Made by a program: the position numbers and the translations under genes | Assembly (NCBI RefSeq): GCF_030867095.1 | Contig: NC_081824.1 | Location: 344,652,203 to 344,716,202 of the forward strand | Source: Alligator mississippiensis | Taxonomy: Eukaryota; Chordata; Crocodylia; Alligatoridae | Length of the DNA stretch: 64,000 nt | Reading direction: 5' to 3' | Notes under the pieces: generated by a model | The model's database searches: none | What the model saw: only the letters and a program-made list of their open reading frames with translations | Told to the model about the DNA's origin: nothing | Shown here: positions 6,599 to 62,953 of the stretch, one piece after another | Numbering within the stretch: position 1 is the first letter of the stretch | Layout of the letters: each line of letters begins with the position of its first letter

Positions 6599-9500
6599 CT
6601 GCCGTTTAAGAAAGAACAAAAACCTCTGAGGAACAGAGTTTAAACTTCTTCCTGATTTCAGATACAAGCATTAACAGTCAGAACAGAAATTGTTAACAAG
6701 TTAAAAGGTCTGACCTATCCATATAAATAAAGTGCCTAATATGTACCCACTGCTTATTCTCTCATATACCAAACACAAAACTTCCCTCTCCCCTAAAACT
6801 TTATCATTCATGAAAGGTGACAGACCGATGAATCTTATCTCCACAAAATAAGCATCATAAGCTCTGCTCAAAGCTTCTGTAAAAAGGAGACTCTGTAGCC
6901 CTCTTTTTACTTCCCCTCTGCAGAAACAGCTAATATAAGAACTAAGCAAAAAAGATCTTTGGTTCATCTACCCTGCTGGAAGCAAGACTTTGAGGAAGGT
7001 GAAAAACTGACTGCCTTCTGTCCTGGACATTTTCAGGGAAACAGCAAGCTAGCTTGCTTCTATAATTGATGTTATTTGAGTAGAAACAGAAGTAAGCTGA
7101 GTGACCTTCCAATCCAATGTGGAAGTGGGAGTAACAGAGAAATTTAGCACCTCATATGCATGGTACAGAAGGTTCCTACTATCACATTCTCATGTAAATA
7201 TTGACCCAATAGTTTGATGTGCATCAACAGTACAGCAGAAGTATCTTCTGCAGACTGAAAGCAATCAGGACTCGTAGTAGAGATGATATCTTTATTAGAC
7301 CACCAAGATTTAAAATAAATAAATAAAGACATCTTTAATTGAAGATTTTTTTTTTGCAAAAATCTTGGTGGTCTAATAAAAGATATCCTCTCTACTATGA
7401 GTCCTGATTGCCCTTCCCTCTAGACCAATATGGCTACAACCTGAATACCTTTTGAAGACTAAGAGACTGAGACTCTTTCACAAATTTAAAAAAAAAAAAA
7501 AAGGTCACCAAATCAATATTAAAATTAAGCCTTAAGAAAGATTCTAACTCCTGCAGAGACCATGTCTTCAGGAAATACGCAATATAATAAAATATTCATG
7601 TAGGCGTCTCATTTGTCTAACTGAAGTGTAAACGCTGCACAAATACATAAATGGTTTCCACATGGAGGTATGGAAAGGGATGAACTCTCAATATAAATGT
7701 AATTCTGAAAAAAGTTAATTAGGCATATAAACCTTGCTATTTTGCTATTAAGTAAATTGCATAGCGTGGGGGTTTTTTTCCCCAGAAACATCACTAGCGT
7801 ATCACAAAATCCATAAAGGGTTCAAGGAAAAAACATATGGAAGTGTTCTTTATACCAAAACATTTTGTTAAGCCATGCAAGTCACGAGAAAGTAAAAAAG
7901 GATCAGTGTATGCTGGATGACCATGGAAGAATATTATTTGCCTCTTCCAGGAAAGGCACAAGGCAATCATGCTGAAAAACACTTGAAAATAAATTAGATT
8001 TCCACTTGAGTTAACAACTACTGGAAGCTTACCCTGGAATCTCTTTGCCAAAAAATAGAGAAAATATGCCACCAATATTCTAGGCCAGTCCCTTTATGAC
8101 AATAAAATCATAAAAAGGCAAGAACAGAAAACATTGCCTTGAATTCTTTTGTTATACAAGCCATGCTCATGATTACTAATTATATTTAACAATACCCCAG
8201 CTGGGTCTTCTATAGTAATTCCAATCACAACCTTGTCAAGAACGATTCCATATCCTAACTATTCTTACTTAAATATAGCAAAACTATATAACCACACACA
8301 AATTAATGGCCAAAATATATTAGTTCTGCACAGGCAAGACAGTCAAGGAAGCCATGACTGACTGTACAGGACTATAAATAGCACTATTCACAGAGAATTT
8401 AGGACCAGGTAGGTTTTTACTCCAAAGCAAAAGGGGAGCATACTGTTGTAAAAAGCCCCAAACCAGCAATGTGATATGATGCAGTATTTTCAGTTTTAAA
8501 ATATGAACACTCAATTAAAAACTATGAAGGCAACTTGCCAGTATCCCTTTAAACAAATTAGAAATCCAAAAGGCTGGCATGCCTAAATATTTTGATACAG
8601 CTTCCTAATTCCATAAGGGCACTTAATGTTGAAATAGGCTCAAAGTACTGTACAGTCACCTAAAATTCCCCAAAGTCATAACAAGAAATTAAGAGGGTTT
8701 TCTGGTCAGAACTGAGAGATGTAACATTCTTCCCATGGTTTAGTCCAGAGGATTAAATAGATTTCAACAGAATAAAATTAAAACGTCTATAAAAGATTCA
8801 CTTCCTCAGGTTTTATAATTCATAGCCTGCTCTTTTCCCAGCAGTTACATTTAATGAGGCAACAACTTATATCTATTGACATTATTTTATACAGTCACAA
8901 GACTCAACCAAGGCTACTTCGTGACTATTGGATGAAAACGAGCATAATTAATTCCTTGTTTTGTTTTAAAAACTGAGCAAAATTCTCAAATATAAGGTAT
9001 GGTAGCTAAACCTGAACTACTCAGTATAGCTTGAACCATTGATTAACATGAAAAAAATAAATTTCAAATTGTTTTGAATAGGTGTTAAAATCTGTAGAAC
9101 GTTGAAGCTTTCTACAGCTACCCTGAGATTTGAGCTGTTTTACATGTTTTTAGGGCAGATCATTTTGTTTTTAGGGCAGATCAAATTGTTTTGTAAATGC
9201 CACCTTTAAGAATGGGTACAACTATTGTTTCTGCATTAAACAAGCATTACCACTGAAGTTTAGGCTCAAGCTTAGAGAGGTCAAGCTTGGTTTCTGGTTT
9301 TTTTAAGTTAACCAAAATGGCTTGGTTTTTCATTTGCATTTCCAAGCACTTAGCCAACTAATTAATGAAAAGCTGTAGGATACCAGGCAGTGAAACCAAC
9401 TATAAAAGTAAATGAGCAATTTATTATCATTGCCCAAAACAGAAGTAATCACAAGTGTGAAATAAATTTGATTCTTTAATTCTGCATTTTAATAAAGTGT

Positions 9501-12500: not shown

Positions 12501-15500
12501 TACAACATACAAGAGAAAGAAATTCATTGAAAACTGCAGTGTTTCAGTAGTTCTAAACTGTACTTTATAGAACATGAAATATTTTGCATTTAGTAAACGA
12601 TCACATATGCCACATGTCTGCAGCAGAGGCAACAGCTGTTGGAGAAATAAAATTCTGGGCCCATTATTAATAATGAAACCAGCAAAACTCTAGATGCATT
12701 GCTCTCCTCAGTTCCATAGCCACTGAATTTTTAAGAAATAAGTCTTATTCACTTTCACTGCACTTTAACACAAACTATGTACAGAAGAACAGAACAACTG
12801 ACAGAAATAGGGAGCCAGGCACACACAGGAGACCATACAAGCTATACAACCATTTTTATTTTCAAGCTGGAGAAACAGGATGGCAGAAGTGTTTTTCCCC
12901 ACCAAGACAGTAGGCATCTAGCCATGTGGCTGAGACTACACGTACATACTTCCCAACTCCTCCGAGTCTTGGATGACAAACGAAAAAGACAAACAACATG
13001 TGGTGATATGGGAACCTGGAGTACAAAAAATATGGCCATTTCAAGACAAATTTTACCCAAAATGAACATGGTTGTTAAGCCAGCTTGTTTTACCAAACAC
13101 AGTGTCTAGTTGGGCAAAATCAAAGGTGCACGAGAACAATTAATAAACAGGTGCATTGCATCAGTAATTATTAATACATTACCAGAGTCGTTTCTACCAG
13201 GTCATGAAGTAGTGGGGAGGGGAAGGGCAGAAGCAAGACAATATTTCTTACCTTGATTTTCCCTTTGACAAAACTAACAATGTCTTCTTTATTGTCAAAA
13301 ACAGGCAAAGTGTGGAGTAAGTTTTGCTCTAGCCATTCCCAGTGTTGATTTATCTCTTCTGGAGTGGCACCTAGAAAGACAAAAGAAAACTTGATTAAAA
13401 ACCATTTTGTAAAAGAAAACATTTCTAAATAAAGAAAAAAAAATCACCATTCATAATCACAAATGTATTAACAGAAATTGAGATTCTGAAGTCCAAATTA
13501 TTAGTAGCAAAGCAGCTGCTAAGATGTTACATTGAATGCTGGAGTTAGAGAATACAAAAATGTTACTGCTTTAAATATGTATTATAGTGTTTTTAGTTTT
13601 TAAGATCTCATTACAAGTCAAATGCTGCTTTGTAAAAAATCACAACACAATAATGAATCTTCTTACTGCAATAGCAGTAAGTGGCAAAATTTTGCCTTGA
13701 TATTTCTTAAAGAAGTCATTAAATTCTGATTTAGGGTCATTCTCCATAGTCCCTGCTAAACATTTCTCCACGTGTCTTGAATTTGGTATCTCACCTGTAA
13801 AGCTTCTGTGATATTCAGCTTCTCTGAGAACAAAGGGGTTCCTTGTTTGTCTGAGTGCTGTGTATGCAACTAGCTTACAAGGAAGAAGTTGTACAATTTT
13901 TGGTACAGGTAAAATGAATTTAAAGATGAAAAGCTTTGAAATTTGATGGGATTTCTTTAAGGACTATATTTAAATGTAATGTGTTCACTCTAACTCCAAA
14001 AATATAATTTTAGTAATTGAAAGCTTGCTCATTAAATCTTCAGTGTCCTACATGTCAGCAGGCATGTGTCACAAAGATATGGGAACAGAAAAAGCCAGTA
14101 CAAGGAAGAGGCAAAACAAAGAACAACATTACTAAAAGAGAAGCTGGCCATCCCATTACAAGACAACTTGGACTAATCAGTCATTGAATAGAACAGTTTT
14201 AAAAAAGGCAGTAAGTACTATTTCCAGTGCCTCACTTGTAGGGACAAGGGGATAATAAAATTTAAAAAAGGATGGCCAAAGCATAAAAAGAAACTGCAAA
14301 ACAAAAGAAAGTTCAAACACAAATGTCATCATCACATACCTAGAGTTACGTGAAAGTTATAATTGCAACATATTGCTTTACACACCAAGATAATAAATTT
14401 TGTTAAGTATTTTCCACCTTCCTCTCCTAGATTTCCCACAAAGAATGCCAACTGGCAGGGAAATTTTCCAAAACTTTAACTTCCCTAACAGGAAAGTCTT
14501 ATGATGGGACTTCATAAATATCATCAATCAAGGCAAAAAAAAAAAAAAAAGATTCACCAAGAAAGAAGAGCTATTTCAACAGCTTTTAAGGAAAAAAAAA
14601 GGCTTCTTGTGGGTAATATCTTTTATTGTACCAACTGCAATATGGTTGGGATAGACATAGGCAAGCTTTCAGGCATCACAGTACCCTTCCTCGGGTCTCT
14701 GGAAGAGAAGCAGACACAGGCGAGCTAAACAGCAGATGGAACAAAAGCCTGTGTAAAACTTTCCCTATGTAAATAAAAACAGGATACAAGAGAAATTATC
14801 AGGTAGCCAACAGGCTGGAGAGATGCAGTAAAAACCTGATAAAGGAAGAAAATAAGATTTTTCAGGAGGGTCTTGAAGAGCAGAGGTTAGTCAGTATCAG
14901 GTAAATTATAATCAGGGATCCTGGTTTTCTCCGATAAAAAAGAATCCCCAATTTTCAGATTTAAAAAAGTAACTCAACATCTACATTTTTCTGTGTTTAA
15001 AAAATGGAAAAACGAATTAAAACTACACCAGCAAACCTGCACTATACCTGTCTTACATAAATTACATTTCATCATCTGGACTGATCACCTGGATTCACTT
15101 AAAATTGTCATAGAAGTCAATAACTACCATTCTTCAATCAAATTCTCTCTGAAATTAAATGAATTACTCCTACACCAACATCACCACAATCCACATCCCA
15201 GAGGACATGCTACAAAACACGCTATACAGAGAACCCGTTGACCCAGCTCTGCCTTAACAATAAATACAATAAAAGATATCACCCACAGCAATTCTTGCCT
15301 CTCACATTTCCTGGACCATCAAGGCAACATTATCACCTCACCTCAACACTACTTTAGGACAAAAAAATCCCAAGTGCTATCAATTGTTAAAAATACTAGA
15401 AATGTTGTCATATTATAATGACATAGCCCACATGAAACAAATAATAAAGTGATAGTGAAGACAGGCGAGGAGTGCATCTTGCTGCCTGACCTCCCTGTTG

Positions 15501-30900: not shown

Positions 30901-33216
30901 AGTAGTCAGGACTTGTATTAGAGATGATATCTTTTATTAGACCAACAAGATTTTTGCAAAAAAAATTTTTGAATTGCTTGTAATTTCTTTAATTGCTTCT
31001 TATAAAGAAGTCACCCCTGGTCAAGTAAGATGCACTCTTTTCATGAAAAGGAAAGAAAGAAAGAAGCTGATATTTTGGAACTCTATTTGTGGGGAAAGTT
31101 ACATAAGCATTTGGAAGGGCCCAAGTTTTCAGTGAGCCAAGGTAAGAAAATATGTTTTTCTATATAGGGACAGGGGCACCAACTATATAGTATTATCCAA
31201 CAAGACCTCCCTGATGGCAGAGAAAAGCATAAACCAATTTTAAGTACTATGGAAACACTTGTAATGAATTAATCAAGTTTGGGAATTTCTCCTTCCATCA
31301 AGCTATAGCTCAATACAAACAATAGCTTGTCTAGCAGCTAACTGACTTTAGAACAGAATGATATTTGGCATTTTGGAGGGAGGCTTCTTCTCCAGAATCC
31401 ACTTATTTCACCTTTCAGCACAATTACAGAGCACCAGCCCCAAGAAACAAAATTATCAGGTCATCTGTTTGCTATCTTTCCTATAAATGCAAGCATAAAC
31501 ATAGCTTTTGCCTCAGTCAGCCTACCTAATTAACATCTCTTAGCAGACTAACATGACACTAAAATAGTCTGTACTAGCTGCCTGCAGGTTTCCAATGAGT
31601 TCAAGGTGTTAATTATGAGCTGGAGACCCCAAATGGCTTGGGATTTACTGTGCTTCCCTCTCTGAGCAATGCTGCAACAGCTGCAGGAAATGGGGACACT
31701 CAATGTGTACCCCTCAGTATAAAAGACTACCAGCAGCATAACAGCCCCTCCATTTTTTATTTATTTATTTTTTGCCTTTCAGACTGGAAAAGTCTGAATA
31801 CTGGAAAATGCTAAAAGGCATTACTATTTAAATAGTGTTAAGGGAGAAACGGGCCTGGTAAGAGCAGATGTTTGCAAGGGAATGTTGTATTATTTGAACG
31901 TGATTTTTTTTGTAGTTGATTATTTTGGCGTGAGGGAAATACAGCAGCTGGCTTTAGTTTTGATTATATTCATAGTTCCTGGATAAGGGACCTAGAGCTC
32001 AGGATAAGCATTCTTTTATATATTATACATCAAAATGAAGTAAATAAGTTGACAACAGGAAAAGAAGGACAAGAGCTAGTATCAGTCAAATCTCCCTGGA
32101 GCATGAGCAGGTGCTCTCTGCACCATAGCTGCACAATCACTGTATTATGGACAGTAGGGCAATTTCTCTCTTTTCCTAAAGAAATAAGTACTAGCTACTT
32201 ACTTTAACTAGTGCTACAACTTAGAGGTCATGATGAATATTTGCTAGTTTTTTTCTTACATAAGTATGCACATTCAGAGACCATCTGTACATAGGCGTTA
32301 ATGATTCTGCAATATAGTCATACTTTACACTTAAATGACACCTTTAATCTTATTACCAAATTCCCTAGTAAATTAATTATTCCTCAAAATTCTCTTTTTG
32401 TTACCCATTAAAAGTAGCTTTTTCCTAATTATTATAAACACACACAAGATCAGAATGATTGCTAACCCAGTTTTATTACTTCAATCAGCTACAAAGTTAA
32501 TGAAAAGGCATCAGAGTTGAAAGAATACCATCAAAATGTGAGATATACCAAACTATTTCTTCAGACTAAAGACTCTGAATTTATAGGTTTATTTTCTTAA
32601 ATTGATAAGAAAAACAAGCCTACATATATTCAGGGAACATACAAAGACAAAAAGCAGTACTTAATTTCTTTTGGATATAAAATAATGCAGCACAGAATAA
32701 CAGACTAGCAAAGTTAGCCACTCAGTAGTGCTGAGAAAAAAGTTACTAATGTTTTACACACTGTAAAACTTAAAAAAAAAAAATTGTAATGCCCAGTGCA
32801 ACTTTCTCAACGAAATCTCAAAGTTAGAGAATGAGCGGTTGCTTTGAAAACACAGAGAATTAATCTAATCAAAAAGGAAAAGAGCTGAAACTGTCAGCAT
32901 CCTCTAATAAAAAGTGACAAATCACCTCACCTCTTTGCTCCAAGAGATTTACATTATGCTACTTTAAATGAGAAAATAGATTTGACAGAACTCATCTCCT
33001 TGCAGGCAGCTAAAGATTACTGTTCACCTGTGGAGTCCATAAACTATCCACAGAGACTACAGAATGGCATCAGCAAGCATTTTAGTGTTTACAGAGCTGT
33101 AACAGTTCAACCAGTTCTCTCACCTCCTACAGAGCTATAATAAATCTCATATGTAAAGATTTCTTCAGTTTTATATAAATACAAATGCAGATCTAGCCAA
33201 AGCTACTAAACTACAT

Positions 33217-36200: not shown

Positions 36201-38474
36201 AGTTGAGTCCTAAGAGAGCCATATTGGTCCAGTCAGGCAGAAGGCAAGGTAGATATATGCACCTTTATAGAATAAAGATGTATACAGAACAAGCTTTCAT
36301 GAACTCAAGCTCACTTCATCAGATGCTGCAAGCTTGAGTTCATGAAGCTTATACTCTCTATAGATCTTAGTGTGTTAGCCTATGAGGAGTTAGTTATGTT
36401 CTAGCCACAGATAAAGGAATCATGGAGAAGAAGGGCTGGAAGAGGCCTCCGGAGGTCATCTAGTCCAAGCCCCTACCTGAAGCAGGATCATTCCTATCCA
36501 AAGTATCCCATACAAACCATAGCCTAAACTCTACATAAGACTACCATCTACCCTGACACAACATAGACCTAACACCCTAACTTGCCACAGCTAAAGCAGG
36601 GGAACCACAGCAGCCAACGTCCTTCTTCTATAACGTCAATTTATGCTCAAGAGGTCCCAGGTAGAAGAGTCGCACCCCCTACTTCAGCAGAAAGCAAAAC
36701 CCCCCACAGTCCGTACCAATCTGACCATGAGGTAAAAAGGATGGGGGGAAGTGTTCATGATTCTGCTCCGATCTATTTTTGATATTACTGACAGCAAAGT
36801 TCTTGTTGACTTCTTTGGAGCTTCTGCCAAGCCAAGGGCACATCCATCTGTCTGGAGTGGCTTGGTCCCTAACACTAGGAAGGATCCCAGAGAAGCAGCT
36901 CTGGACAAGTGCTCTTCTACTCTAGAGGCTCTCTCCTAGAGCACCAGTCTGATATCATTACACCTCCTGATCCCTACAGAAGACGAGCAACCTGCATTTT
37001 ACCTGCCAGGCAGCCCAGACCTGTTCCTGGCAGATAACCACATAGGCCCCATCCAGATGAGCACGGCTGTGTGGTATGTGGCGCTGCAGACACATCTGTG
37101 GCGTCACATGCCGCATGTTCGGTTGTTCTCCATGCTGCAAGGGAGCACTGGGGAGGGCTTTTTGACCCCTGGATATTCATGGGTCAAAAAAACCCACGGG
37201 GAAGAAAGTGGAGTAGCACACAGGGTGACAAACCTGGAGCCTGGCCGGCCAGCGCCATACTCCACTGCCAGCCAGGCTCCATGAGGCACAATCACCACTG
37301 CTGCAGCCCCAGGAGGCCCCCCAAGTAAGGCTGCTGGGGCCAACCCAGTACTAGCACCAACATCCCCTATCCCACCTGGGGTTACCTGCCATGCACCAGA
37401 GCGTGTGTGGCACAGGAGTTCCCCCAGGACAACTAGCAGCAGCACAAGGTATGTCAATGCTAGTTGTCCTTGGGGAATCAAACCTCCATGCAGGTCTGGA
37501 CATGGCCACAGCGGCTAAAACACCTGTGGTGCATTCAGAGGAAAAGCGTGGAGGGAGATGAGAGGGGTGAAGAATTAGAATCCTAGAGGCAGGGCTAGAA
37601 AGGCCCTTAAGAGGTAATCTCTAGACCATCCAACCCATCCCATACAACAATCCTTGCCTAACCTGCTATTGAAACTAGAGTCAAGAGAGGAGGACGATTT
37701 TTAAGACTTGGATAGACAAAACCTTGGCTGGGATGGGCTCTGCTTTGAATGGGGGGTTGGCTTATGACCTCCTGAAGCCCCTTCCAACCCTTGTTTTCTA
37801 GGATTCTGTGACCACACAGTGCCAAAATAGACTGGAAGGTGGCTTGAGGGCAACTCTCAACTTTTGTAGACCCAAGTCCCTCGCTTGGGACTGGAGCTCC
37901 CCGGGAAACCTCAGTGCTTGGCGCTCACCCCTCCCCTGCCTCCGGGAGAGCCCCTGTGCCCTTCTGCGGCGGCGAACTCCGCCCCCCGCGGGACAGAACG
38001 CGGAGACAAAGCTGCGGGTTCTAGAGTGAATCGCGCCAGCGCGCGACACCCCCTGAAGGGTCGCCAGCTGCCTGGTGGACAACCACGCTGGCTGCGGCCC
38101 CCGGGCTCCAGCAGGGCTCAGCCCCGGGCGCCGGTGCTTCAGGACACAGATGAGGGCTCTGGGGACGAGATCGGTGCCTACCCCGCCCCTGCACCCAGCC
38201 CAGGACTTTGCCCCCCGCCGGACGGCAGCCGAGTCCCGCGGCGCTAGCACCCCAGCAGGGCAAGCAGGTGCCGGGAGGCGCCGACCCCCGCCTACCCCCG
38301 GGGGCCAACGCCGGGCTCCCCCGACCCCGCGCCCCCAGCCCTAGTACCAGTAAAGCGGCCGCCGGCGTCGCCGTGGCCCCGGCGCCGCTGCAGGATGAAG
38401 TAGCCGCTGGTGCGCTGCGTGACCCAGAGGCGCAGCGCGTTCTTGAGCACCACCTCCTCGGGCTTCAGCCACAT
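6358..38474 (-). CDS. TBC1D8: TBC1D8, TBC/Rab-GAP family protein, 5' half (five coding exons)
   Basis: Spliced gene on the minus strand. Coding exons are 38348-38474, 21348-21458, 13252-13370, 11551-11779 and 6358-6598. Lengths 127, 111, 119, 229 and 241 bp give phases 1, 1, 0, 1, 2 that join without a break: residues 1 to about 275. The translation follows vertebrate TBC1D8 closely and differs from TBC1D8B, TBC1D9 and TBC1D9B; diagnostic pieces are [36 protein letters not shown] and [14 protein letters not shown]. Family members have two N-terminal GRAM domains, a Rab-GAP TBC domain and an EF-hand-like region, and are about 1,100 residues long. The window holds the N-terminus and first GRAM domain (about residues 145-215). 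The catalytic TBC domain is outside, so its arginine and glutamine fingers cannot be checked. All five borders are GT-AG and no stop or frameshift is present, so the gene looks functional. The first non-coding exon and the transcription start are not determined. Confidence 0.95.
7261..7445. mobile_element. PLE-derived foldback element
   Basis: Arms 7261-7312 and 7360-7411 are inverted copies about 52 bp long. Both contain the PLE tail signature ataaaagatatc (or its complement). The right side continues into tagaccaatatggctacaacc, the terminus shared with other PLE pieces here. The loop is A/T-rich. No clean target duplication was found. Confidence 0.8.
9077..9166. repeat. 90-bp direct repeat, copy 1
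   Basis: Matches 11147-11236 with a single difference (A at 9116, G at 11186). It is followed by a partial internal repeat of its own last 18 or so bases (tttttagggcagatca). Confidence 0.9.
9628..10066. mobile_element. hAT-like non-autonomous transposon
   Basis: Ends cagggctgtccacctt and the inverted tcagctgaagagccctg form imperfect terminal inverted repeats. The 8-bp flanks acataact and atataaat agree at 6 of 8 positions, as expected for an old hAT insertion. The GC-rich interior encodes nothing recognisable. Confidence 0.6.
11147..11236. repeat. 90-bp direct repeat, copy 2
   Basis: Second copy of the sequence at 9077-9166, same orientation, 2,070 bp away. The flanks of the two copies do not match, so the duplicated block is short. 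Confidence 0.9.
11551..11779 (-). CDS. TBC1D8: TBC1D8 coding exon 4 (start of GRAM domain 1)
   Basis: 229 bp, phase 0 in and 1 out, residues 120-195. It opens [20 protein letters not shown] and includes the GRAM-domain strand region around [19 protein letters not shown]. The donor is gtaagtgt after the codons for GKE. Its split leucine codon is completed by exon 5. Confidence 0.95.
11780..13251 (-). other. TBC1D8: TBC1D8 intron 3
   Basis: Intron of about 1.47 kb. It contains a CR1 3' end fragment at 12045-12135 and otherwise unassigned sequence. Confidence 0.9.
12045..12135 (+). mobile_element. CR1 LINE 3' end fragment
   Basis: Typical CR1 tail: ggttggactagatgacct, then ggtcccttccagccct, ending ctgtgattcaat. 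Strongly 5'-truncated. Confidence 0.85.
13252..13370 (-). CDS. TBC1D8: TBC1D8 coding exon 3
   Basis: 119 bp, phase 1 in and 0 out, residues 80-119. Acceptor tttctag is followed by [18 protein letters not shown], and the exon ends at VKGKIK with donor gtaagaaa. The segment matches the region just before the first GRAM domain. Confidence 0.95.
14585..15360 (+). mobile_element. degenerate Penelope-like element with inverted left end
   Basis: Left end 14585-14700 is an inverted PLE tail with a decayed hammerhead core on the minus strand (14667-14694: CCGAGGA ... GAAA). At 15060-15170 the plus strand encodes [12 protein letters not shown] followed by [14 protein letters not shown], matching FIIWTDNLQSL and NNHHPSIQLSLEYS of the coding PLE at 44.8-45.0 kb. 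The right end 15255-15355 carries aataaaagatatcaccca and ctggaccatcaaggcaa. The rest of the coding region is deleted. Confidence 0.7.
16858..18600 (+). mobile_element. CR1 LINE fragment, ORF2 decayed
   Basis: The plus strand encodes CR1 reverse transcriptase pieces in several frames: [29 protein letters not shown] and [19 protein letters not shown] (17038-17450), [15 protein letters not shown] (motif A, 17450-17495), then the FADDTKL-type motif C near 17727-17750 and a C-terminal part to 18122. It ends in the CR1 tail (ggttggactagatggcctcc) near 18590. Several stops and frameshifts make it inactive; the 5' end and endonuclease are missing. Confidence 0.92.
18951..18990. repeat. CA microsatellite
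   Basis: Interrupted (CA)n run in TBC1D8 intron 2, after an AT-rich stretch. Confidence 0.95.
20504..20582 (-). other. candidate alternative or cassette exon of TBC1D8
   Basis: 79 bp between a strong acceptor (pyrimidine-rich tract ending ttgccttcag) and a strong donor (CAG then gtaggta). One frame is open throughout, reading [20 protein letters not shown] and on to ATNS, and ends in phase 1, which is what exon 3 needs. Entry from exon 2 would shift the frame, because 79 is not a multiple of 3. It would read through if used as a first exon from the in-frame ATG at 20612-20610, giving 36 new residues before exon 3. I do not recognise the peptide. A chance ORF is possible. Confidence 0.3.
21348..21458 (-). 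CDS. TBC1D8: TBC1D8 coding exon 2
   Basis: 111 bp, phase 1 in and out, residues 43-79. Acceptor tttag is followed by the [12 protein letters not shown] segment, and the exon ends at IACG with donor gtgagtta. Intron 1 before it is about 16.9 kb. Confidence 0.95.
21640..22915 (-). mobile_element. old CR1 LINE, 3' half, split by a hAT element
   Basis: On the minus strand this follows the CR1 3' region: the tail starts near 21643 (catagaaatgtaggg). Sequence matching the conserved stretch between RT and C-terminus (gaccatttctccaatttgtc, 22377-22396) follows, and CR1-like sequence resumes after the hAT at 22815. No ORF survives. Border positions are approximate. Confidence 0.75.
22623..22806 (-). 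mobile_element. 184-bp hAT MITE (copy in CR1)
   Basis: Ends caatcgttttcaact and the inverted ttgaaaaacactg. The 8-bp flanks are atccagac (22615-22622) and atctagac (22807-22814), 7 of 8 identical. Same family and same length (184 bp) as the element at 43476-43659, in the opposite orientation. Inserted inside the CR1. Confidence 0.9.
26203..26491. mobile_element. hAT-like non-autonomous transposon
   Basis: Left end gagggttgtccaaactgg pairs with right end ccactttggatagccttg as imperfect inverted repeats. Flanks ttttaaaa and ttttaatg agree at 6 of 8 positions. GC-rich interior without a convincing coding sequence. Confidence 0.6.
30390..30575. mobile_element. hAT-like MITE, family B
   Basis: Inverted ends aggggtgggcag and aattgcccacccctg. 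The interior shares gcccctaaaaaatttagaaa and ttgccaaaac with 57864-58029, so the two are copies of one family. Confidence 0.8.
30901..30975 (-). mobile_element. PLE terminal fragment
   Basis: tcaggacttgtattagaga followed by gatatcttttattagaccaa, the same terminal sequence as in the foldback at 7261 and the piece at 56098. Confidence 0.75.
33219..33247. repeat. poly-G tract (29 G)
   Basis: An unbroken run of 29 G on the plus strand inside intron 1. The length may be inexact in the assembly. Confidence 0.95.
35381..35835. mobile_element. MITE-like element with gtgggtacatctac ends
   Basis: The left end gtgggtacatctacacatg is roughly inverted at the right (gtatgttgatgcagccac). The ends resemble those of 42668-42886 and the right end of the 58.3 kb element. 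The interior encodes nothing seen. Confidence 0.5.
36209..36392 (-). mobile_element. PLE-derived foldback with hammerhead-like core
   Basis: Minus-strand core at 36295-36322: CTGATGA, stem II (GTGAGC/GTTCAT with loop TTGA, containing G-U pairs), then GAAA. The GAA is followed by AGCTTGTT, which can form a tiny stem III. An inverted partial copy follows (agctttcatgaactcaag at 36292, gcttgagttcatgaagct at 36331-36348). Outer borders are approximate. Confidence 0.7.
36413..36560 (-). mobile_element. CR1 3' end fragment
   Basis: aatcatggagaagaagggct, then ggaggtcatctagtccaagc, the inverse complement of a CR1 tail. It may extend towards 36700. Confidence 0.65.
37572..37674 (-). mobile_element. 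CR1 3' end fragment
   Basis: gaatcctagaggcagggcta and the following catccaacccatcc resemble an inverted CR1 tail. Directly precedes a plus-strand CR1 tail. Confidence 0.6.
37690..37812 (+). mobile_element. CR1 3' end fragment
   Basis: Ends cccttccaacccttgttttc and then aggattctgtgacc, a CR1 tail. It abuts the CpG island. Confidence 0.75.
38348..38474 (-). CDS. TBC1D8: TBC1D8 coding exon 1 (start codon)
   Basis: Codons 1-42 plus one base. The ATG at 38474-38472 opens [20 protein letters not shown], the conserved start of the TBC1D8/9 family; A at -3 gives an acceptable start context. The frame stays open upstream without a family match, so this ATG is chosen by homology. The exon ends ACT G before donor gtactag (plus-strand 38341-38347), phase 1. 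It lies inside the CpG island. Confidence 0.95.
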
Positions 38475-41833: not shown

Positions 41834-41993
41834 GCAGAAGGCAGGGCAGGATGACACGTTAGAGACTAACTGGTTCAGAGAGATGTAAGATTTCGTAGGC
41901 AACAGCCTACTTCATCAGACACTGTGGCCTGTGCAAGCTTATACCTCTCTGAACCAGTTAGTCTCTAAAGTGCCATCCTGTCCAACCTTCTGC
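41834..41993 (-). mobile_element. PLE-derived foldback with perfect hammerhead stem II
   Basis: Arms 41834-41882 and 41945-41993 are inverted copies (ttagagactaactggttcag and complement). Between them the minus strand reads CTGATGA, A, GTAGGC, TGTT, GCCTAC, GAAA (41918 down to 41891): an intact hammerhead catalytic core with a 6-bp stem II. Stem III is decayed. The arm tail resembles the PLE-linked terminus gttagtct...aggtgcca known to me from sauropsid genomes. Confidence 0.8.
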
Positions 41994-42667
41994 TTGACTC
42001 TACTCACACAGCTAACTGCCTCCCTTTCTCCATTTGGTATATGAGTGGGATGGGGCAGTGGTTTTTCTTCTCATAAAGCAGCTAGGGCAGCATGTCAGTC
42101 CTCATTTAATAAAATAATTTCTTAGTGTAGCTAGATTTGTGAATATTTGTTCCTTTGTCAATATTTCTTAACTTACATTTATTGCCTTTTTTTATATTCA
42201 ACCTTGGGCTTTGTGCTAATTCATTTGAAAAGTTTTTGAAAAGAGAACTGACTGACTTGTTGGTTTCTAACAAGACTTTTGTTCCATGAGGACTTTTTTT
42301 CTTGAGGCTAGAGACCTAGCAAAAGACAGGGAAGCAAGAATAAAATAGGTTTCTATTTTAGTATCACATGTCACACACATGCCACTGTTGATTACCTCTC
42401 AAGACCTGCCTTTTATTGAGCATAACCAACAGTATTCCTTCAGCGCTGAGGCTGTTTAACCGTATCAAAATTGGTTCAACGGTCATTAAAATCAAAAGAT
42501 GTTACAATTTATTTCTTCAAAATAAGATGTTGTGGTATGTAGAATCAGTTAGAAGGAGTTAACATTAAAAAAAAGATAAATGACTTGAGGAGCATGAGGT
42601 GGAGATGGACAGAAAACTAACCCAGGATAACATAGAAAAATACGGTATGTACAATTCATAGTACATA

Positions 42668-42886
42668 CTGGGTGCATCTACAAGACACTAACTGCCAGTA
42701 GCCTCATAACACAGCACAGTAGTGTGCCAAACAAAACTCATACTAATACAGCACTGTGCAGTAGTATTAGGCTACTGCACAGTTAGCACTTGTAAAAGCC
42801 CATGTGCTGGTGGTACTTGGTTATGCAAGAACTAACCTTAATGCGCAATAACTGCATCACATTAATGAACATGTAGATGCACCCAC
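42668..42886. mobile_element. 219-bp hairpin MITE flanked by TA
   Basis: Terminal inverted repeats ctgggtgcatctac and gtagatgcacccac, flanked by TA on both sides. The interior has a second inverted pair around gcactgtgcagtag. Possibly related to MITEs described from crocodilians (Chompy); family assignment is not proven. Confidence 0.75.
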
Positions 42887-43475
42887 TATAATAAAAACTC
42901 AAGGAAAACTGGGGGAAAATTATGATTCTTTCCTCAAGATAAAACAGGGATGGCTGTATGTTGAGTGCCATGAAATCCAACTAAAGCTAAGTATTAGCTG
43001 CAGGAAGAAAGATTTATATTTTCATATCAATTTCCAATCCAGAGCACTGAAGCAACAAGACACATAGGCGTTTTCTTCCTAGTTTTCTTCTATGACAGAG
43101 GAAGCAGCAGACAGGTCTGGACACAGGCATGGACGAACCAGGTGGCCACCCAGGGCCCGAACAGAAAGGGGGCCTAAAAATGGTAATATTAATTATTTTT
43201 ATTATTATTATCATTATATCTGGCATTATATCTTGACTCTGTCTTCCCATGACAATATCATAATCAAAGTATGGACATATTATGTAGAATGGGGGTTCTA
43301 AAACTATGGTCTGTGAACCATCTGTTGTCCATGAGGGCATAGTAAATGGTCTGCAGTCAGCCTGCAAATTTCATCAGCCACACACTCAAAGAGGGCTCAC
43401 TAAGTGGCATAATAATTCCTGGCTGAAAAGCAGTGCCATAGCCTCTCCCTTACTACATAACCTAATGCTCTAGAT

Positions 43476-43659
43476 CAGTGGTTTTCAACCTGTGGTCCAC
43501 AGACCCCTGGGGGTCTGGAGACTATGTCTAAGGGGTCTGCAGAAGATAACTATGATCAATCAAAAGTACGTGAATACTCACACTTATAATTCAAAGGGGT
43601 CTGCACCTCCATTCAAAATTTTTTAGGGATCTGCAAATGAAAAAGGTTGAAAACTACTG
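43476..43659 (+). mobile_element. 184-bp hAT MITE with exact 8-bp TSD
   Basis: Terminal repeats cagtggttttcaacct and aggttgaaaactactg match at 15 of 16 positions. Flanked by ctctagat on both sides (43468-43475 and 43660-43667), the classic hAT target duplication. Same family as 22623-22806. Confidence 0.95.
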
Positions 43660-43894
43660 CTCTAGATGCAGCCCTGGCCTAGAGAACCACTGTAAAAGGT
43701 GTAGGAGGGTGTTTGGGAGGGGTGAAGCCCCCCCACCTCTCCAAAGAGGGAGGTACTTTACCCAAGTAGGGTTGTTTGGAAAGTGGAGCCACTTCTTCCT
43801 GGGGAAACAAGTGAAGGAAACATTTTAGAGAAATCTCATATTTTGAATGGTATGTGTGTGGTGGCCTATTAGAAATGCTGGGGGTTGATAATGA

Positions 43895-44057
43895 TGCAAA
43901 AGGTATGGATTAATTAGGATGAGTGCAAAGTACAGCACTTAGAGAAGAAGGTATTTAGGCAAATGAGAACGCAGCAATGCTGCAGAAGATCTGGGGATCA
44001 TATCAGATCACAAACAGAAAATGGCAACAATAGCATGTTGTTGTGAAAAAAGTAAAA
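43895..44057 (+). mobile_element. old CR1 fragment, part before the PLE insertion
   Basis: Decayed CR1 ORF2 C-terminal region (gagtgcaaagtacagcactt, then gatctggggatcat and tgttgttgtgaaaaaagt). It continues at 46166 after the PLE. Confidence 0.75.
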
Positions 44058-44064
44058 CTCATAC

Positions 44065-44790
44065 ATAATCAGCAACACATGCCACCACAACAACCTCTCT
44101 TTACCAGAGAAAAAGGCCATAGAATCTCTAATATCTAACCACCAAATAGTAATAAAACCAGGAGATAAAGGAGGAGCCATAGTCATCCTAAACCGGGAGG
44201 ATTACATAAAGGAAGCCAACAGACAGCTCTCTGACACCACCTACTACAAAGAACTACAAGAAGATCCTACTTCCCTTTTCACCAAAAAACTCAACAATAC
44301 CATCAAATCATTTCCATCAAGACTACAAGAAAAACTACAGACCTTGATCCCCCTGCTACCTAACCCGGGGACTTTTTACATGCTCCCTAAAATCCACAAA
44401 CAAGGGAACCCTGGCAGACCTATCATATCCAACCATGGGACCGTAACTGAGGAAATATCAGGTTTCGTTGAATCAATCCTAAAACCGCTCGTCACCCACA
44501 GAGCAAGTTTTGTACAAGACACTACAGACTTTCTACAGAAACTTAAAAACATAGACTACCTTCCCAGCAACACACTCCTAGCCACCATGGACGTTACCAG
44601 CCTATATACCAACATCCCACACCAGGATGGCAACCAAGCCTGCCTTACATATCTACAGGAACAAGATTACATCCCAGAATACAGACCCAAAGACATTACT
44701 GACCTTATACACTTCATCCTCACACACAACAATTTCACTTTTAATAATCAACACTTCCTCCAGATGATGGGAAACAGCTATGGGCACTAA
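44065..44790 (+). pseudogene. PLE ORF, N-terminal and RT part (frameshifted)
   Basis: Open from the insertion border to a TAA at 44788. No natural start is left; the element is truncated. It reads IVIKPGDKGGAIVIL (44129 onward), a PLE hallmark. Next come FYMLPKIHKQGNPGRPIIS and MDVTSLYTNIPH, RT motif A with its catalytic aspartate (near 44590). Near 44778-44788 the frame changes from 1 to 2 at the motif B region, so the protein ends early at NSYGH. Penelope-type RTs resemble telomerase RT and use the endonuclease-cut target as primer. Confidence 0.93.
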
Positions 44791-45967
44791 AATGGCCCCA
44801 CAGTATGCCAACCTTTTTATGAGCCACCTGGAAGAAGACTTCCTCAAGAACTGCACCATCAAACCCTTGCTATACTTAAGATACATCGATGACATCTTCA
44901 TAATTTGGACTGACAACCTGCAATCTCTGATTGAGTTCCAGCAGAAATTCAACAATCACCATCCCTCCATCCAACTTTCTCTAGAATACTCCAGCACCAA
45001 CATCTCCTTTTTAGACACAATGATCAGTATCCAGAAGGGTAAAATACAGACCACAGTATACAAGAAACCCACAGACCAACATACATATCTGCACAGAACC
45101 AGCAATCACCCTAAACACACCAAAAAAGCTGTGATATACAGCCAAGCCCTCAGATACCACCGCATTTGTACTGAAGAGAACACCCAGGATTGCCACCTCA
45201 CCTATCTTAAAAAGGCTTTCACCCAGCAAGGACACTCGTCCAGAGAGGTAGATCGCATGTTTAAAAGAGCCACCCAGATACCACGTGAAGAACTGCTGCA
45301 GTACAGAAGAAAAACCCCTACAACTTGCACACCGCTGGTTATGACCTATCACCCCTCCCTTGAACCTGTACAGAAAATCCTAAAAAAATTGCAACCCATA
45401 CTAGACAGAGACCCTATTCTTAAAAAGATCTTCCCAGAGCCACCCATCCTAGCCTTCAAACAAGCACCAAACCTCACCAACCTCATCACCAGAAGCAAAT
45501 TTCCTCAAGCCCAGAACACACTGAAAGGATCCAGACCGTGCCATGACAAGAAATGCAAAACCTGCCAACACATCTCCACCACCCCCACTATTACTACACC
45601 CCACAACAGAGACATCAGCATCCCTGGATCTTACAGCTGCACCTCCAGAAATGTAATATACCTCATCCAATGCACCAAATGCCCTGATGGGAAATATGTA
45701 GGAGAGACCAAACAACTGCGCACCAGAATGAGCGCACACCGGAAATCCATCAAAGACAGAAATACCCAATTACTGGTGGGGGCACATTTCTCACAGGAGG
45801 GCCACTCTCTCTCCAATCTCTCAGTCCTGATCCTCAAGGGAAATTTACACAACAATTCCCGGAGACGAGCCTATGAGCTCCATTTCATCAACCTGCTGGA
45901 TACTAAAGATCATGGACTAAACATAGACATTGGATTTTTGATACATTATAATCTGCCTGGCAACTGA
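44780..45967 (+). pseudogene. PLE ORF, RT motifs B-C and GIY-YIG endonuclease
   Basis: 395-codon frame continuing the RT after one frameshift: MGTKMAPQYANLF (motif B), RYIDDIFIIW (motif C with the DD pair, near 44880) and STNISFLDT. A cysteine-rich linker CHDKKCKTCQ follows. The last 110 or so residues are a GIY-YIG nuclease: VIYLIQCTKC, then KYVGETKQLRTRMSAHRKS with the catalytic arginine, and a downstream YELHFINLLD with the metal-binding glutamate. Stop TGA at 45965-45967. Apart from the frameshift at its start, this part has no stop, so the insertion is fairly young. As it stands the element cannot encode one full protein. Confidence 0.95.
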
Positions 45968-46052
45968 CTCCCCAGCCCAGCCCAGCCCCTGGCTTCTTTA
46001 CTTTTCATTCCATCCAGGAAGAGCACACACCAACTGCTGCAGCTTCCTTAGC

Positions 46053-46079
46053 CTGACGAAGGGTTTTTTGAACCCGAAA
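46053..46079 (+). ncRNA. hammerhead-like ribozyme core in the PLE 3' UTR
   Basis: CTGACGA (46053-46059), then a stem II (GGGTT/AACCC), then GAAA (46076-46079). GAAAGCTTGCTT after the core allows a minimal 3-bp stem III (AGC/GCT) with a 2-base loop and U at the cleavage position. Hammerhead motifs with minimal stem III are known from Penelope-like elements. Activity is inferred; such minimal forms usually need a dimer. Confidence 0.65.
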
Positions 46080-46165
46080 GCTTGCTTAATAACTATTCTC
46101 CAACTATTTGGGTTGGTTTAATAAAAGATATTAAATTCACCCAAGGAACCTTGTCAACCTCATAC

Positions 46166-48149: not shown

Positions 48150-49440
48150 TAGGATTCATAGATTCATAGATGTTAGGGTCGGAAGGGACCCCAATAGACC
48201 ATCAAGTCCGACCCCCTGCATCGGCAGGAAAGAGTGCTGGGTCTAGATGACCCCAGCTAGATGCATATCCAACCTCCTCTTGAAGACCCCCAGGGTAGGG
48301 GAGAGCACCACCTCCCTTGGGAGCCCGTTCCAGACCTTGGCCACTCGAACTGTGAAGAAGTTCTTCCTAATGTCCAGTCTAAATCTGCTCTCTGCTAGCT
48401 TGTGGCCATTATTTCTTGTAACCCCTGGGGGCGCCTTGGTGAATAAAACCTCACCAATTCCCTTCTGTGCCCCCGTAATGAACTTATAGGCAGCCACAAG
48501 GTCGCCTCTCAACCTTCTCTTGCGGAGGCTGAAAAGGTCCAGGTTCTCTAGTCTCTCCTCATAGGGCTTGGCCTGCAAGCCCTTAACCATACGAGTGGCC
48601 CTTCTCTGGACCCTCTCCAGGTTATCCGCATCCCTCTTGAAGTGCGGTGCACAGAATTGCACACAGTACTCCAACTGCGGTCTGACCAGCACCCGATAGA
48701 GGGGAAGTATCACCTCTTTGGATCTATTCGTCATGCATTTGCTGATGCATGATAAAGTGCCATTAGCTTTTCTGATGGCTTCGTCACACTGCCGACTCAC
48801 GTTCATCTTGGAGTCCACTAGGACTTCAAGATCCCTTTCTGCTTCTGTGCCACCAAGGAAGTCATTTCCTAGGCAGTAGGTATGCTGGACATTTTTCCTC
48901 CCTAGGTGCAGCACTTTGCATTTCTCCTTGTTGAATTGCATTCTGTTGTTTTCTGCCCACTTGTCCAATCTATCCAGGTCTGCTTGCAGCTGTTCCCTGC
49001 CCTCCATTGTGTCCACTTGTCCCCACAGTTTTGTGTCATCCGCAAACTTGGACTGAGTACACTTCACTCCCTCGTCCAAGTTGCTGATGAAGACATTGAA
49101 GAGTATCGGTCCTAGGACCGAGCCCTGCGGGACCCCACTGCCCACACCCTTCCAGGTCGAAACCGACCCATGTACCACGACTCTCTGGGTGCGACCTTCT
49201 AGCCAATTCGCCACCCACCAGACTATGTAGTCATCCAAGTCACAGCCTCTTAACTTGTTCACCAGTATGGGGTGAGATACCGTATCGAAGGCCTTCCTGA
49301 AGTCTAAGTATACGACATCAACCCCTACTCCTGTGTCCAGGCGTTTCGTAACCTGGTCATAAAAAGAGACTAGATTAGTCAGGCATGATCTACCTACTAC
49401 GAACCCGTGCTGGTTTCCTCTCAGCATAATTAAGCCTGCC
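48150..49440 (-). mobile_element. young CR1 LINE, 5'-truncated, clean frame
   Basis: 3' end near 48154 (attcatagattcatagatg, the CR1 8-bp tail repeat read in reverse); 5' truncation near 49435. It carries an unbroken ORF2 C-terminal part. Same subfamily as 62954-63367. Confidence 0.95.
48243..49427 (-). CDS. CR1 ORF2 C-terminal part (reverse transcriptase)
   Basis: 394 codons with no stop. It begins inside the RT domain (NQHGFVVGRSCLTNLVSFYD), then VDVVYLDFRKAFDTVSHPIL (motif A, catalytic D), GVPQGSVLGPILFNVF (motif B) and [12 protein letters not shown] (motif C, DD pair). The thumb and C-terminal region follow (KCKVLHLGRKN, LERVQRRATRMVKGL, SRFRLDIRKNFFTVRVAKVW). The first methionine is not the natural start: full CR1 ORF2 is over 900 residues with an N-terminal AP-like endonuclease that is missing here. 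Not expected to be mobile. Confidence 0.95.
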   Translation of the reverse strand: MLRGNQHGFVVGRSCLTNLVSFYDQVTKRLDTGVGVDVVYLDFRKAFDTVSHPILVNKLRGCDLDDYIVWWVANWLEGRTQRVVVHGSVSTWKGVGSGVPQGSVLGPILFNVFISNLDEGVKCTQSKFADDTKLWGQVDTMEGREQLQADLDRLDKWAENNRMQFNKEKCKVLHLGRKNVQHTYCLGNDFLGGTEAERDLEVLVDSKMNVSRQCDEAIRKANGTLSCISKCMTNRSKEVILPLYRVLVRPQLEYCVQFCAPHFKRDADNLERVQRRATRMVKGLQAKPYEERLENLDLFSLRKRRLRGDLVAAYKFITGAQKGIGEVLFTKAPPGVTRNNGHKLAESRFRLDIRKNFFTVRVAKVWNGLPREVVLSPTLGVFKRRLDMHLAGVI

Positions 49441-49469
49441 GGGCTCTCACAAATGTGAGGCTACACTTA

Positions 49470-49634: not shown

Positions 49635-49647
49635 TAGCATCATACTA

Positions 49648-50106
49648 GGCAGGCAAGGTTCTTTGAGTAGATGTGATATCTTTTATTAGACCAACTGACT
49701 GGTTGGAAAAAAGGTTCTTGACAAGCTTCCAGGCGCAGATCTCCAATGATTTCCTTTTTCACAGACAGCCTCTTTTCTACTTTGTATTCTATTGCTGTAA
49801 TGTCTCCCTTTGACCTTTTCCCCCCTGCTTTCTTCCTCCTCCCTTACCTGCTTTACCTTTTGTCTTTCTAATTTCTACGTATTTACATTCTCACTGACAT
49901 CCTGCCACACTTTTAGCTTCTCTCACTCCTTGGAGTCTCAGACCAGCAGAGACTCCCTATGCCTGAAGAAGAGTGCTGCACTCGAAAGCTTGCCAAGAAC
50001 TTTTTTCCTGAACTACTCAGTTGGTCTACTAAACGATATCACATCTACTCAAAGAACCTTGCCTGCCTATGTCCATAGACCAACACGGCTACAACCAAAA
50101 ACTCAG
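49648..50106 (+). mobile_element. 459-bp PLE-derived foldback with exact 13-bp TSD
   Basis: Flanked by tagcatcatacta at 49635-49647 and 50107-50119. The first 90 or so bases are the inverse complement of the last 100 or so (ggcaggcaaggttctttgag versus caaagaaccttgcctgcc). The interior is a pyrimidine-rich 3' UTR. A plus-strand core at 49963-49987 reads CTGAAGA, GAGTG...CACTC, GAAA. No coding part remains: a non-autonomous unit built from two PLE ends. Confidence 0.92.
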
Positions 50107-50394
50107 TAGCATCATACTACAAACTTTTCTATAAATGGGTTGTCCTAGACCTATTCACATGCAGGGTTGAGGCTTTATCTTGCATCTTCCTTAGTAACCT
50201 GGAAGAAGTGTGAAGAGCAAATTAGTGAGATTCCCTGGAATGTGTTAATGAAACTCCCAAGTGATCCTGAAGTTTTGAGATGCACTAAGCCCTAGGCTGT
50301 GCATTGAAATCATACAAACAAACCTCCTGTAAATGACTTAAGACAATAGGGGACAACAAAAACAGGTTTTCAAGTACTCTATAAGAATAACCAG

Positions 50395-50633
50395 GGGCGT
50401 AGGTTGTAGCCATGTTGGTCTAAGAACACAGGCAGACAAGGTTCTTTGGGTGACTCTGATATCTTTTATTAGACCAACTTAAATAGTTGGGGAAAAAAAT
50501 CTTAGCAAGCTTTTGGGTTTAAAAACCCTTTGTCAGGCTAAACCTGAAAGCTTGCTAACATTTTTTTTCCAACTATTTAAGTTGATCTAATAAAAGATAT
50601 CAGATTCACCCAAAGAACCTTGTCTGCCATAAA
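50395..50633. mobile_element. 239-bp PLE-derived foldback with 9-bp TSD
   Basis: Flanked by aataaccag (50386-50394 and 50634-50642). Arms 50431-50519 and 50541-50628 pair almost throughout. Each carries the PLE tail (gatatcttttattagacc and complement) and cttgctaa/ttagcaag at the hammerhead end. Left of the arm lies the terminal piece gtaggttgtagccatgttgg. The hammerhead core is decayed. Confidence 0.92.
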
Positions 50634-50644
50634 AATAACCAGAC

Positions 50645-56097: not shown

Positions 56098-56250
56098 TCC
56101 AGGTTATAGCCGTATTGGTCTAAAGGAAAAGGCAATCAGGACTTGTAGTAGAGATATCTTTTATTAAACCAACATTTAAAAAAAAAAATCTTTAATTGCA
56201 AGCTTTCTGGCACAAACACCCTTCATCAGGCATTGGACAAAAGATTGTAA
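56098..56250 (-). mobile_element. PLE end with hammerhead-like core
   Basis: Minus strand: CTGATGA (56229-56223), a weakly paired stem II (GGGTG...TGCC), GAAA (56207-56204), AGCTTGC, then the tail ttaataaaagatatctctac and the terminus gaccaatacggctataacc. Single orientation, no foldback arm seen. Confidence 0.75.
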
Positions 56251-58317: not shown

Positions 58318-58568
58318 AGCGTCTACGCAAGATGCTTACTGCACATTAGCCTAATAACACTGTGCAGTAGCAGAGCAGTTATTAACCATGCTAATAGCCT
58401 ACTGTGCAGCGTTATTAGGCTAATGCACAGTAAGCATCACTAAACAACTGTGTGCTGGTGTTACTGCGCAGTAACTCTAATGAGGTAGTAACTGAATGCA
58501 CAGTAACTAGAGGTACTAAACTAAATGTGCAATAACTAAGGCACATTAGTGAATGTGTGGATACACCC
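58318..58568. mobile_element. hairpin MITE-like element
   Basis: Arms 58331-58370 and 58399-58438 are 40-bp inverted repeats with about four mismatches (gatgcttactgcacattagc and complement). The right end gtggatacacccac resembles the ends of 42668-42886. Borders are approximate. Confidence 0.7.
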
Positions 58569-59600
58569 ACACTAACCAAGCTTTTTGCCACTTATTTTTA
58601 ACTAAGAAAAATCTTTTCTACAGAAACTATGCAGGTACAGGTCAACCAATTTGTATTATCTTTTATCTTCCCAAGCCCTTCTGAGAGAAGGTATGTAGGA
58701 AAACCAAATATTACTGTGAAAACAATTGTGTCCTTTCTGCTCTGCAAAGACAACACGCTTAGTTTGCAATCTATTGGTGGTATGTTGTGTCCCTTTCCTA
58801 CACACAGTGTTTGTTTTGCTCATTATTTATTACTTAAACTCTTCAGGACAGGGACTGTGTCTTAAGTTTGCATGGCACCTACTACTATGCATCCACCTTG
58901 ATGTTATTGGGGGCATCCCAGTGCTCCTCTAATACACTACTACCAATAAAAACAATGTCCCACGAAAAAGTCTGTTGTGGGTTGTTTGAGGAAGAAAGAC
59001 CAAAAGGACAATGAAAAAGGAAAATAGGTGTAAAAACACAAATCATTTCAGTTCTGCATTCTTGTTTGGCTTACTCACATTTTTTCTTGACCTTAAATCT
59101 ACACTAAAACTTCATTATAATCAGAAGTGTTAATAGGATGTGAAACTTTTCATTTCCTGCTTCTGTGACTGATTGATTGTCAGTGAAGAATAACTCTATA
59201 AACAAAACAAAATCCAAATTCTTCCCTTTCAATGAAAAGGCTGTAAATTTCAAAACTGATAACCAAACATTCCTTTTTAAAAAAAGCAACATGTACCTAA
59301 ATACTCCCGGATGTCACCAAGCCTAAGAACTTAACAAGATACAAAACAAAATTGGATATTTACATAGGTAAAAAGAATTCCCACGGTTATAATACTTCAT
59401 GCTGAAAGGAGAGTTTAGAAGGGATACAAAACCTTATGCTCCTTTAGGGGTAAAAGTATTTTTGGATGAAGCTGAAGACCTTCTTGAGGAATAGATTATC
59501 CCCCAGATGCTTTGGGGGAAAGTGGGGTTTCTTCTACCTTCCCCTGAATGACCACCTTGAGAGAGTTCACTGTCAAATAGTGGAAGCTCAATTGGCTCAA

Positions 59601-62440: not shown

Positions 62441-62953
62441 CCCACTCCAGGACCGCTGGGGAGGCCCTGGTGGCTGCTGCTTCCCTCTGCCCTGGACCAG
62501 CGAGCCTGAGCCACAGCCAGTAGCAGTGGGAGATATGGACAGTAAAGGACACACCCTCTTTGTTTTTCCATCTTTTCTCTCTTCTCTGCAGAGCCCCTGA
62601 GCTGCACAGAGCTCGGTGCTTCACTCCGTGGCTGTAGGGACAGCAAACTGAAACTCCTCGGAGGAGTTTTAATTTGCTATGCCCCAACTCATTTAAGGCC
62701 TATTACGCTGCTGAATTTCCTACAGCAGCTGGAATTAATGTGTAATACGCCGCTGAGGTGTACAAACACCAACACCATTAAAGCGGTGCAAAAGCATTTA
62801 GCCTGGTTTAAAGTGTTATGCACACATCCCTCATTTCATCTACACATGGCCTAATAATATTCTGGGAACCAGAATACGGCCACCCCTGCCATGCTGGTTA
62901 TTGCTTCCATGCCTCCCTATACAAAATCTTGAATCTGCCCATAAGGGGACCAA

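Follow-up and report, generated by a model that had tools for sequence, protein, structure and literature searches.

A Penelope-like hammerhead motif in a short foldback of inverted element ends in Alligator mississippiensis

Results and discussion

A foldback of two element ends

In the window analyzed here (the whole stretch of DNA, 64,000 nucleotides from Alligator mississippiensis), a foldback at positions 41834 to 41993 has on its minus strand a hammerhead motif of the minimal type I class, namely that of a Penelope-like element (PLE); this much is shown at the level of sequence, and cleavage is predicted from it. We consider it highly probable that the foldback is an old, very short PLE insertion of a known kind, composed of two head-to-head end pieces and devoid of an ORF, and it fits the inverted pseudo-LTR insertions known from PLEs, as far as these are described in the available text of PMC3846280. 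On this reading it does not represent a novel mobile element but adds one more divergent case to an established class of ribozymes and an established type of insertion, and the copy is in all likelihood a defunct remnant that serves no function by itself. Its interest lies in showing a PLE hammerhead whose register is clear and backed by covariation. The parts of the foldback are as follows.

41834..41993, minus strand: foldback, two head-to-head PLE end pieces (inverted repeat and fold; minus is the sense strand of the hammerhead copy)
41834..41882, minus strand: direct arm, PLE end sequence 3' of the hammerhead (arm comparison)
41945..41993, plus strand: inverted arm, PLE end sequence on the plus strand, without hammerhead core (44/49 bases identical to the other arm)
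41994..42013, plus strand: candidate tail, on the inverted arm only (12/20 bases like the tail at 36236-36217 of the minus strand, by eye)
41879..41924, minus strand: minimal type I hammerhead motif (register, covariation and leave-one-out model, 27.5 bits, E 2.4e-5)
41922-41919, minus strand: stem I, 5' side, GUGU
41918-41912, minus strand: CUGAUGA
41911, minus strand: extra A
41910-41895, minus strand: stem II
41894-41891, minus strand: GAAA, followed by UC
41888-41887, minus strand: UU, with the predicted cut directly after it
41886-41883, minus strand: stem I, 3' side, ACAU

The inverted arms, which a first-pass annotation of the sequence had given as 49 bp long, are a real inverted repeat, and their identity (44 of 49 bases) extends to 60 of 72 when the arms are lengthened to 72 bases. 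RNA folding, which that annotation had proposed as a check, was run on both strands: the minus-strand RNA folds at -102.8 kcal/mol (z -14.4) and the plus-strand RNA reaches z -13.9, with 0 of 200 shuffles equal to either. The arms would thus fold a transcript, as had been claimed; conformers with stems I and II formed and the core open at the hairpin head make up 0.12% of the 160-nt ensemble in the free-energy model. The foldback copy itself contains no reading frame, Tandem Repeats Finder listed no array at the locus, and no target-site duplication (TSD) was detectable at 41834-41993 (1964 of 2000 random pairs were equally good).

Register of the hammerhead motif

The minus-strand CTGATGA, the perfect 6-bp stem II with its tetraloop (GTAGGC TGTT GCCTAC, TGTT being the loop) and the GAAA are all present, as first described. 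The bases of the hammerhead core are C3, U4, G5, A6, G8 and A9, then G12, A13, A14 and A15.1, then U16.1 and H17, and the set is complete at 41918-41887 on the minus strand. To this extent the description of the core as intact holds; it had overlooked the extra A (41911), which separates A9 from stem II, and had left the cut site and stems I and III unplaced. The best register reads CUGAUGA, extra A, 6-bp stem II, GAAA, UC, UU, predicted cut, and a 4-bp stem I that pairs GUGU with ACAU (GAAA-UC-UU/ACAU, a slash marking the cut). Of helix III, nothing remains but the A15.1-U16.1 pair and two loop bases. The register is independent of the arms; stems and a predicted cut site do exist, in a register different from the one that the foldback had implied. 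In the transcript of a complete element, the motif would be expected to cleave directly after GAAA-NN-UU, probably poorly by itself and more efficiently as a dimer or in the presence of the element protein.

A different geometry is available at the hairpin head, where the arms would act as helix III of a self-sufficient type III hammerhead (AAGCU-U/GCAC...GUGU-CUGAUGA). The foldback copy does offer a readable U16.1, H17 and 4-bp stem I for this arrangement, the arms forming a long helix III, and an elongated helix III in tandem copies improves cleavage according to the available text of PMC6155905. We nevertheless hold this geometry to be highly improbable: such conformers are confined to the 0.12% of the ensemble given above, the structure as drawn lies at -97.5 kcal/mol (5.3 above the minimum of -102.8) with a C.U mismatch adjoining the core, and a comparable stem I was not found by eye in the other core-bearing inverted pairs. 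This register was the one first tried, and the ensemble evaluation led us to reject it as a general reading.

Covariation among seven copies

The minimal type I register can be followed through seven copies of the motif in the window, namely that in the foldback and the following six.

46047..46091, plus strand: hammerhead motif 3' of a PLE reading frame (motif reading, covariance model)
49957..49999, plus strand: hammerhead copy in a PLE insertion with an inverted end at 49648-49728 (tail to 50106; TSD 49635-49647 and 50107-50119, 13/13)
50499..50542, minus strand: decayed hammerhead copy in which G8 and G12 read A (palindrome 50402-50628; TSD 50381-50394 and 50629-50642, 13/14)
36283..36328, minus strand: hammerhead copy in palindrome 36275-36368 (end sequence closest to that of the foldback at 41834-41993)
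14655..14700, minus strand: hammerhead copy, U4 read as C (motif reading)
56192..56235, minus strand: hammerhead copy with a weaker stem II, 4/5 pairs (motif reading)

All seven share one order: a CTGANGA-like core, one extra A, stem II, a GAAA-like block, two bases and TT, after which the bases pair back, wholly or partly, to those 5' of the core. Helix III is accordingly absent or minimal in each (GAAA or a decayed form of it, two bases, UU). Five of the seven have every core base, the exceptions being the copy with U4 changed to C and the one with A at G8 and G12, a pattern that CpG decay would give. Stem I is complete (4/4) in the foldback copy and in the decayed copy at 50536; the remaining copies form 2 or 3 of the 4 pairs. 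The core alignment (A2) omits those rows of alignment A1 that lack CTGANGA, namely 50530-50628 plus (a right half-copy), 7325-7440 plus, 30900-30985 minus and the inverted arm 49646-49735.

The predicted stems I and II are supported by compensatory changes among the seven copies. Over the four stem I and three stem II pairs, 85.7% of the 49 cells are paired (67.3% in shuffles), both sides have changed in six of the seven pairs, and the covariation score was reached by 0 of 500 shuffles; the register was picked on these same seven copies, the foldback included, so that these controls lean toward it. Registers slid along the alignment pair in at most 49% of cells, and when partners were swapped between copies the observed pairing was reached in 18 of 20,000 permutations for stem II and 206 of 20,000 for stem I. 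When the foldback copy is removed, neither the pairing nor the score of the remaining six is attained in any of 500 shuffles, and their count of pairs with changes on both sides is attained in 7 of the 500. Seven copies are few and some are closely related, and these figures therefore overstate independence; a published lizard ribozyme (below) serves as an outside check.

Built from the other six copies and run without filters, a covariance model found the foldback copy at 27.5 bits (E 2.4e-5), and the best match outside the seven copies scored 16.4 bits (E 0.034). The foldback copy is divergent, scoring 27.5 bits against 44.5 to 56.6 for the six copies of the model, which match by construction. 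The 16.4-bit match lies at 13989-14034 on the plus strand and is perhaps a decayed copy. The stretches 15265-15287 and 14560-14720, about 560 bp apart, may reflect a PLE end in inverted orientation, situated upstream of the minus-strand hammerhead copy at 14694.

Linkage to a Penelope-like element

A PLE coding stretch sits 2 kb from the foldback.

44056..45967, plus strand: two overlapping PLE frames that encode RT and GIY-YIG, apparently truncated at the 5' end (Pfam and protein matches)

The RT/GIY-YIG frame and the motif that follows it span 44056-46091. The second frame matches GIY-YIG above the cut-off (E 3.3e-5) and RVT_1 partially (E 4.5e-5; 23.7 bits, not reaching the cut-off of 29.6), and the first frame, with no Pfam match, aligns to the N-terminal part of related PLE proteins. 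The best five of 143 protein matches are from Alligator mississippiensis, with 87-93% identity over the covered part, followed among the 120 matches listed by turtles, frogs and invertebrates; together with the CR1 frame described below, these matches point to a crocodylian genome. 3' of the PLE stop, at 46053, stands CTGACGA, A, stem II, GAAA, GC and TT. The link to Penelope hammerheads that had been drawn at the outset is thereby supported, through the same motif 3' of a PLE frame, the compensatory changes and the leave-one-out match.

We weighed one further origin for the hairpin: it might derive from a DNA transposon, as a MITE-type foldback, or be microRNA-like, its likeness to a hammerhead then being fortuitous. 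Rfam does return microRNA matches, the best being mir-590 at 39.5 bits (E 1.9e-6), of a kind that any long hairpin may yield; every one of them falls under its cut-off (65 bits for mir-590), and the covariation of the motif, the leave-one-out match and the PLE linkage make such an origin extremely improbable.

Silence of the Rfam models

Rfam includes hammerhead families. At gathering score no Rfam family matched anywhere in the 64-kb window, and at E up to 10 no hammerhead family matched around the foldback. With E up to 10, one stretch gave seven weak matches, none of them to a hammerhead, and another gave none; the stretch with the PLE-linked copy gave one snoRNA (E 2.3), the hammerhead copy being missed. 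The absence of a covariance match, which the first-pass annotation had named as refuting if it held even with a dimer, thus formally applies to Rfam for the monomer, but it carries little weight and is uninformative about the foldback copy, because the PLE-attached copy was missed as well. These results suggest that the Rfam hammerhead models miss the minimal type I class of PLEs, the likely causes being the absent helix III and the short stem I.

The same silence, at gathering score and at E up to 10, is what might be cited for a hammerhead likeness arisen by chance, to which we give next to no credence. Strict half-motifs with the extra base (CTGANGA, one extra base, a stem of at least 5 pairs, GAAA) occur four times in the 64-kb window, against an average of 0.05 over 40 Markov-1 sequences of equal length (0 versus 0.025 for the form without the extra base), the leave-one-out match has an E of 2.4e-5, and Rfam passed over the PLE-attached copy equally. 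A motif search of viral contigs returned five stretches, whose contexts, judged by eye, were without PLE end sequence, and a second motif pattern had 0 matches in those contigs.

Inverted pairs of element ends

Five inverted pairs or palindromes of PLE ends were examined (7258-7443, 36275-36368, 41834-41993, 49648-50106 and 50402-50628), with breakpoints, tails and the stem I of sister pairs in the arm-helix topology judged by eye. The first of these is as follows.

7258..7443, plus strand: palindrome of PLE ends without hammerhead core, with a tail on the right arm (repeat comparison)

Two of the pairs are bounded by clear TSDs: that at 49635/50107 matches in 13 of 13 bases (3 of 2000 random pairs were equally good) and that at 50381/50629 in 13 of 14 (5 of 2000). 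In both (49648-50106 and 50402-50628) the TSD directly abuts the tailless end, and the other arm has a tail containing GACCAACACGGCTACAACC or the like. For 7258-7443 and 36275-36368 there is only a 7-bp TSD candidate, matched by 209 of 2000 random pairs; the tail of 7258-7443 is on one side only, and the outer end of one arm of 36275-36368 could not be placed. The inner ends lie, by eye, at AAGCTT beside the predicted cut in 41834-41993 and 49648-50106, within stem II in two other pairs, and 3' of the core in 7258-7443. Three of the five junctions fall at AGCT or AAGCTT, and two of the five fall at the predicted ribozyme cut or within 6 bases of it (both by eye). Because the inner breakpoints differ, the foldback is not a fixed, conserved unit among the five pairs; what the comparison supports is a type of insertion structure in which PLE ends are paired in opposite orientations.

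These observations bear on the idea, raised in the first-pass annotation, of a non-autonomous, retrozyme-like foldback unit, in which the hammerhead would free and circularize a short unit RNA for copying by a PLE enzyme. A hammerhead core is present, the remains of a possible helper PLE lie in the same window, and animal retrozymes have type I hammerheads and RNAs of about 170-400 nt, as given in the available sections of PMC7229834. We regard the idea as highly improbable all the same, and do not retain it: no tandem array is listed at the foldback locus, the unit there has one hammerhead in an inverted repeat and not the direct tandem repeats that define a retrozyme, the inner breakpoints vary among the five pairs (by eye), 7258-7443 lacks a core altogether, and two of the five pairs are bounded by TSDs as single insertions. 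The likeness to the animal retrozymes in those sections of PMC7229834 is that of a hammerhead within a short non-coding retroelement, and the difference is that those lie in small DNA tandem repeats that yield linear and circular RNAs, whereas the foldback is a single inverted pair.

Comparison with known systems

Among the closest counterparts of the foldback motif is PAc, the Poseidon PLE of the lizard Anolis carolinensis, whose template RNA is printed in the Methods of PMC11167929 (of which, here and below, we cite the available text). PAc RNA can be read in the same register (CUGAGGA, an extra U, six contiguous stem II pairs, GAAA, CG, UC/AGG), with three stem I pairs and a cut 26 nt past the AUG, the distance stated in PMC11167929. 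Both ribozymes thus have CUGANGA, one extra base, stem II, GAAA, two bases, UH, the cut and stem I, at a PLE end; one extra base after A9 is common to all seven window copies and the PAc ribozyme. They differ in that the extra base is A in the foldback and U in PAc, that stem I has 4 bp in the foldback and 3 bp in PAc, and that the foldback copy is a divergent remnant with no attached reading frame, known from sequence, whereas PAc was tested in vitro (PMC11167929). The PAc ribozyme is reported in that text to cleave in vitro only with the element protein, and not without it. A minimal type I class with absent or minimal helix III is described in the available parts of PMC6155905 and PMC7761336, the former reporting that tandem copies, with their elongated helix III, cleave better.

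The plus-strand hammerhead of chrysanthemum chlorotic mottle viroid (PMC3705267, available text) likewise has an additional A after A9, before stem II, and its trans cleavage is moderately slower yet retained; unlike the foldback motif, this ribozyme belongs to a viroid and not to a retroelement. Since the extra U of PAc and the extra A of the viroid both occur in ribozymes that cleave, the extra A of the foldback should, by analogy, be no bar to activity.

The arrangement of the arms has its counterpart in the Penelope elements of the rotifer Adineta vaga, for which the available text of PMC3846280 describes pLTRs in inverted order, one of which bears a tail, together with palindromic junctions and TSDs, and puts forward self-priming as their origin. 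The foldback shares the head-to-head ends and the palindromic junction and has a weak candidate for the one-arm tail, and two of its sister copies share the TSD; unlike the rotifer insertions described there, the foldback copy has no reading frame and no detectable TSD. TSDs are 13-14 bp long in the two sister copies here, versus 8-10 bp in that text of PMC3846280.

A proposed mechanism of formation

We propose that the foldback formed at insertion. Two first strands would each have begun near an internal start site, the short tail being included in one and absent from the other, and both would have run toward the hammerhead, to be joined there by short homology; alternatively, one strand may have primed itself. 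The tail on one arm is better explained by two separate starts, because a self-copied strand would repeat the same end, an argument that draws on three clear cases and one weak case among the five pairs. That three of the five junctions lie at AGCT or AAGCTT suggests joining by short homology, in copies that do not give the native upstream sequence. According to the available text of PMC11167929, the PAc protein nicks and extends both target strands and starts at two adjacent sites that bound the tail, start-site use did not visibly differ between the strands, and unprocessed RNA is the main substrate; the last two observations are neutral toward the reading with two separate starts or count against it. 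In vitro insertion was unaffected by PAc ribozyme mutants, and RNA-seq ends at the cut site were not found in that study (PMC11167929, available text). Normal insertion by the mutants and the use of unprocessed RNA as main substrate both speak, as far as that text goes, against a need for ribozyme cutting.

It is conceivable, although we think it rather unlikely, that PLE insertions are built from both nicked strands at once and joined at AGCT or AAGCTT, with the hammerhead or the fold setting the inner junction. Each strand would then start on element RNA at one of two adjacent internal sites (with or without the tail), and both DNAs would be copied toward the hammerhead and joined at the self-complementary AGCT or AAGCTT. 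If true, this would explain head-to-head palindromes without self-priming. The completion of PLE insertion is a step termed not yet validated in the available text of PMC11167929, and pairs of inverted ends in which just one arm bears a tail provide a testable hint about it.

Other repeats in the window

A reverse transcriptase frame at 48243-49460 is read here as CR1, and reverse transcriptase ends that we likewise read as CR1-like lie in opposite orientations at 48154-48571 and 62950-63367 (97.4% identity over 418 bp). Related repeats at 42681-42886 and 58328-58570 are 70-79% identical, the second being self-complementary and MITE-like, and a 200-bp repeat occurs in opposite orientations at 43469-43668 and 22614-22813, with 85.5% identity.
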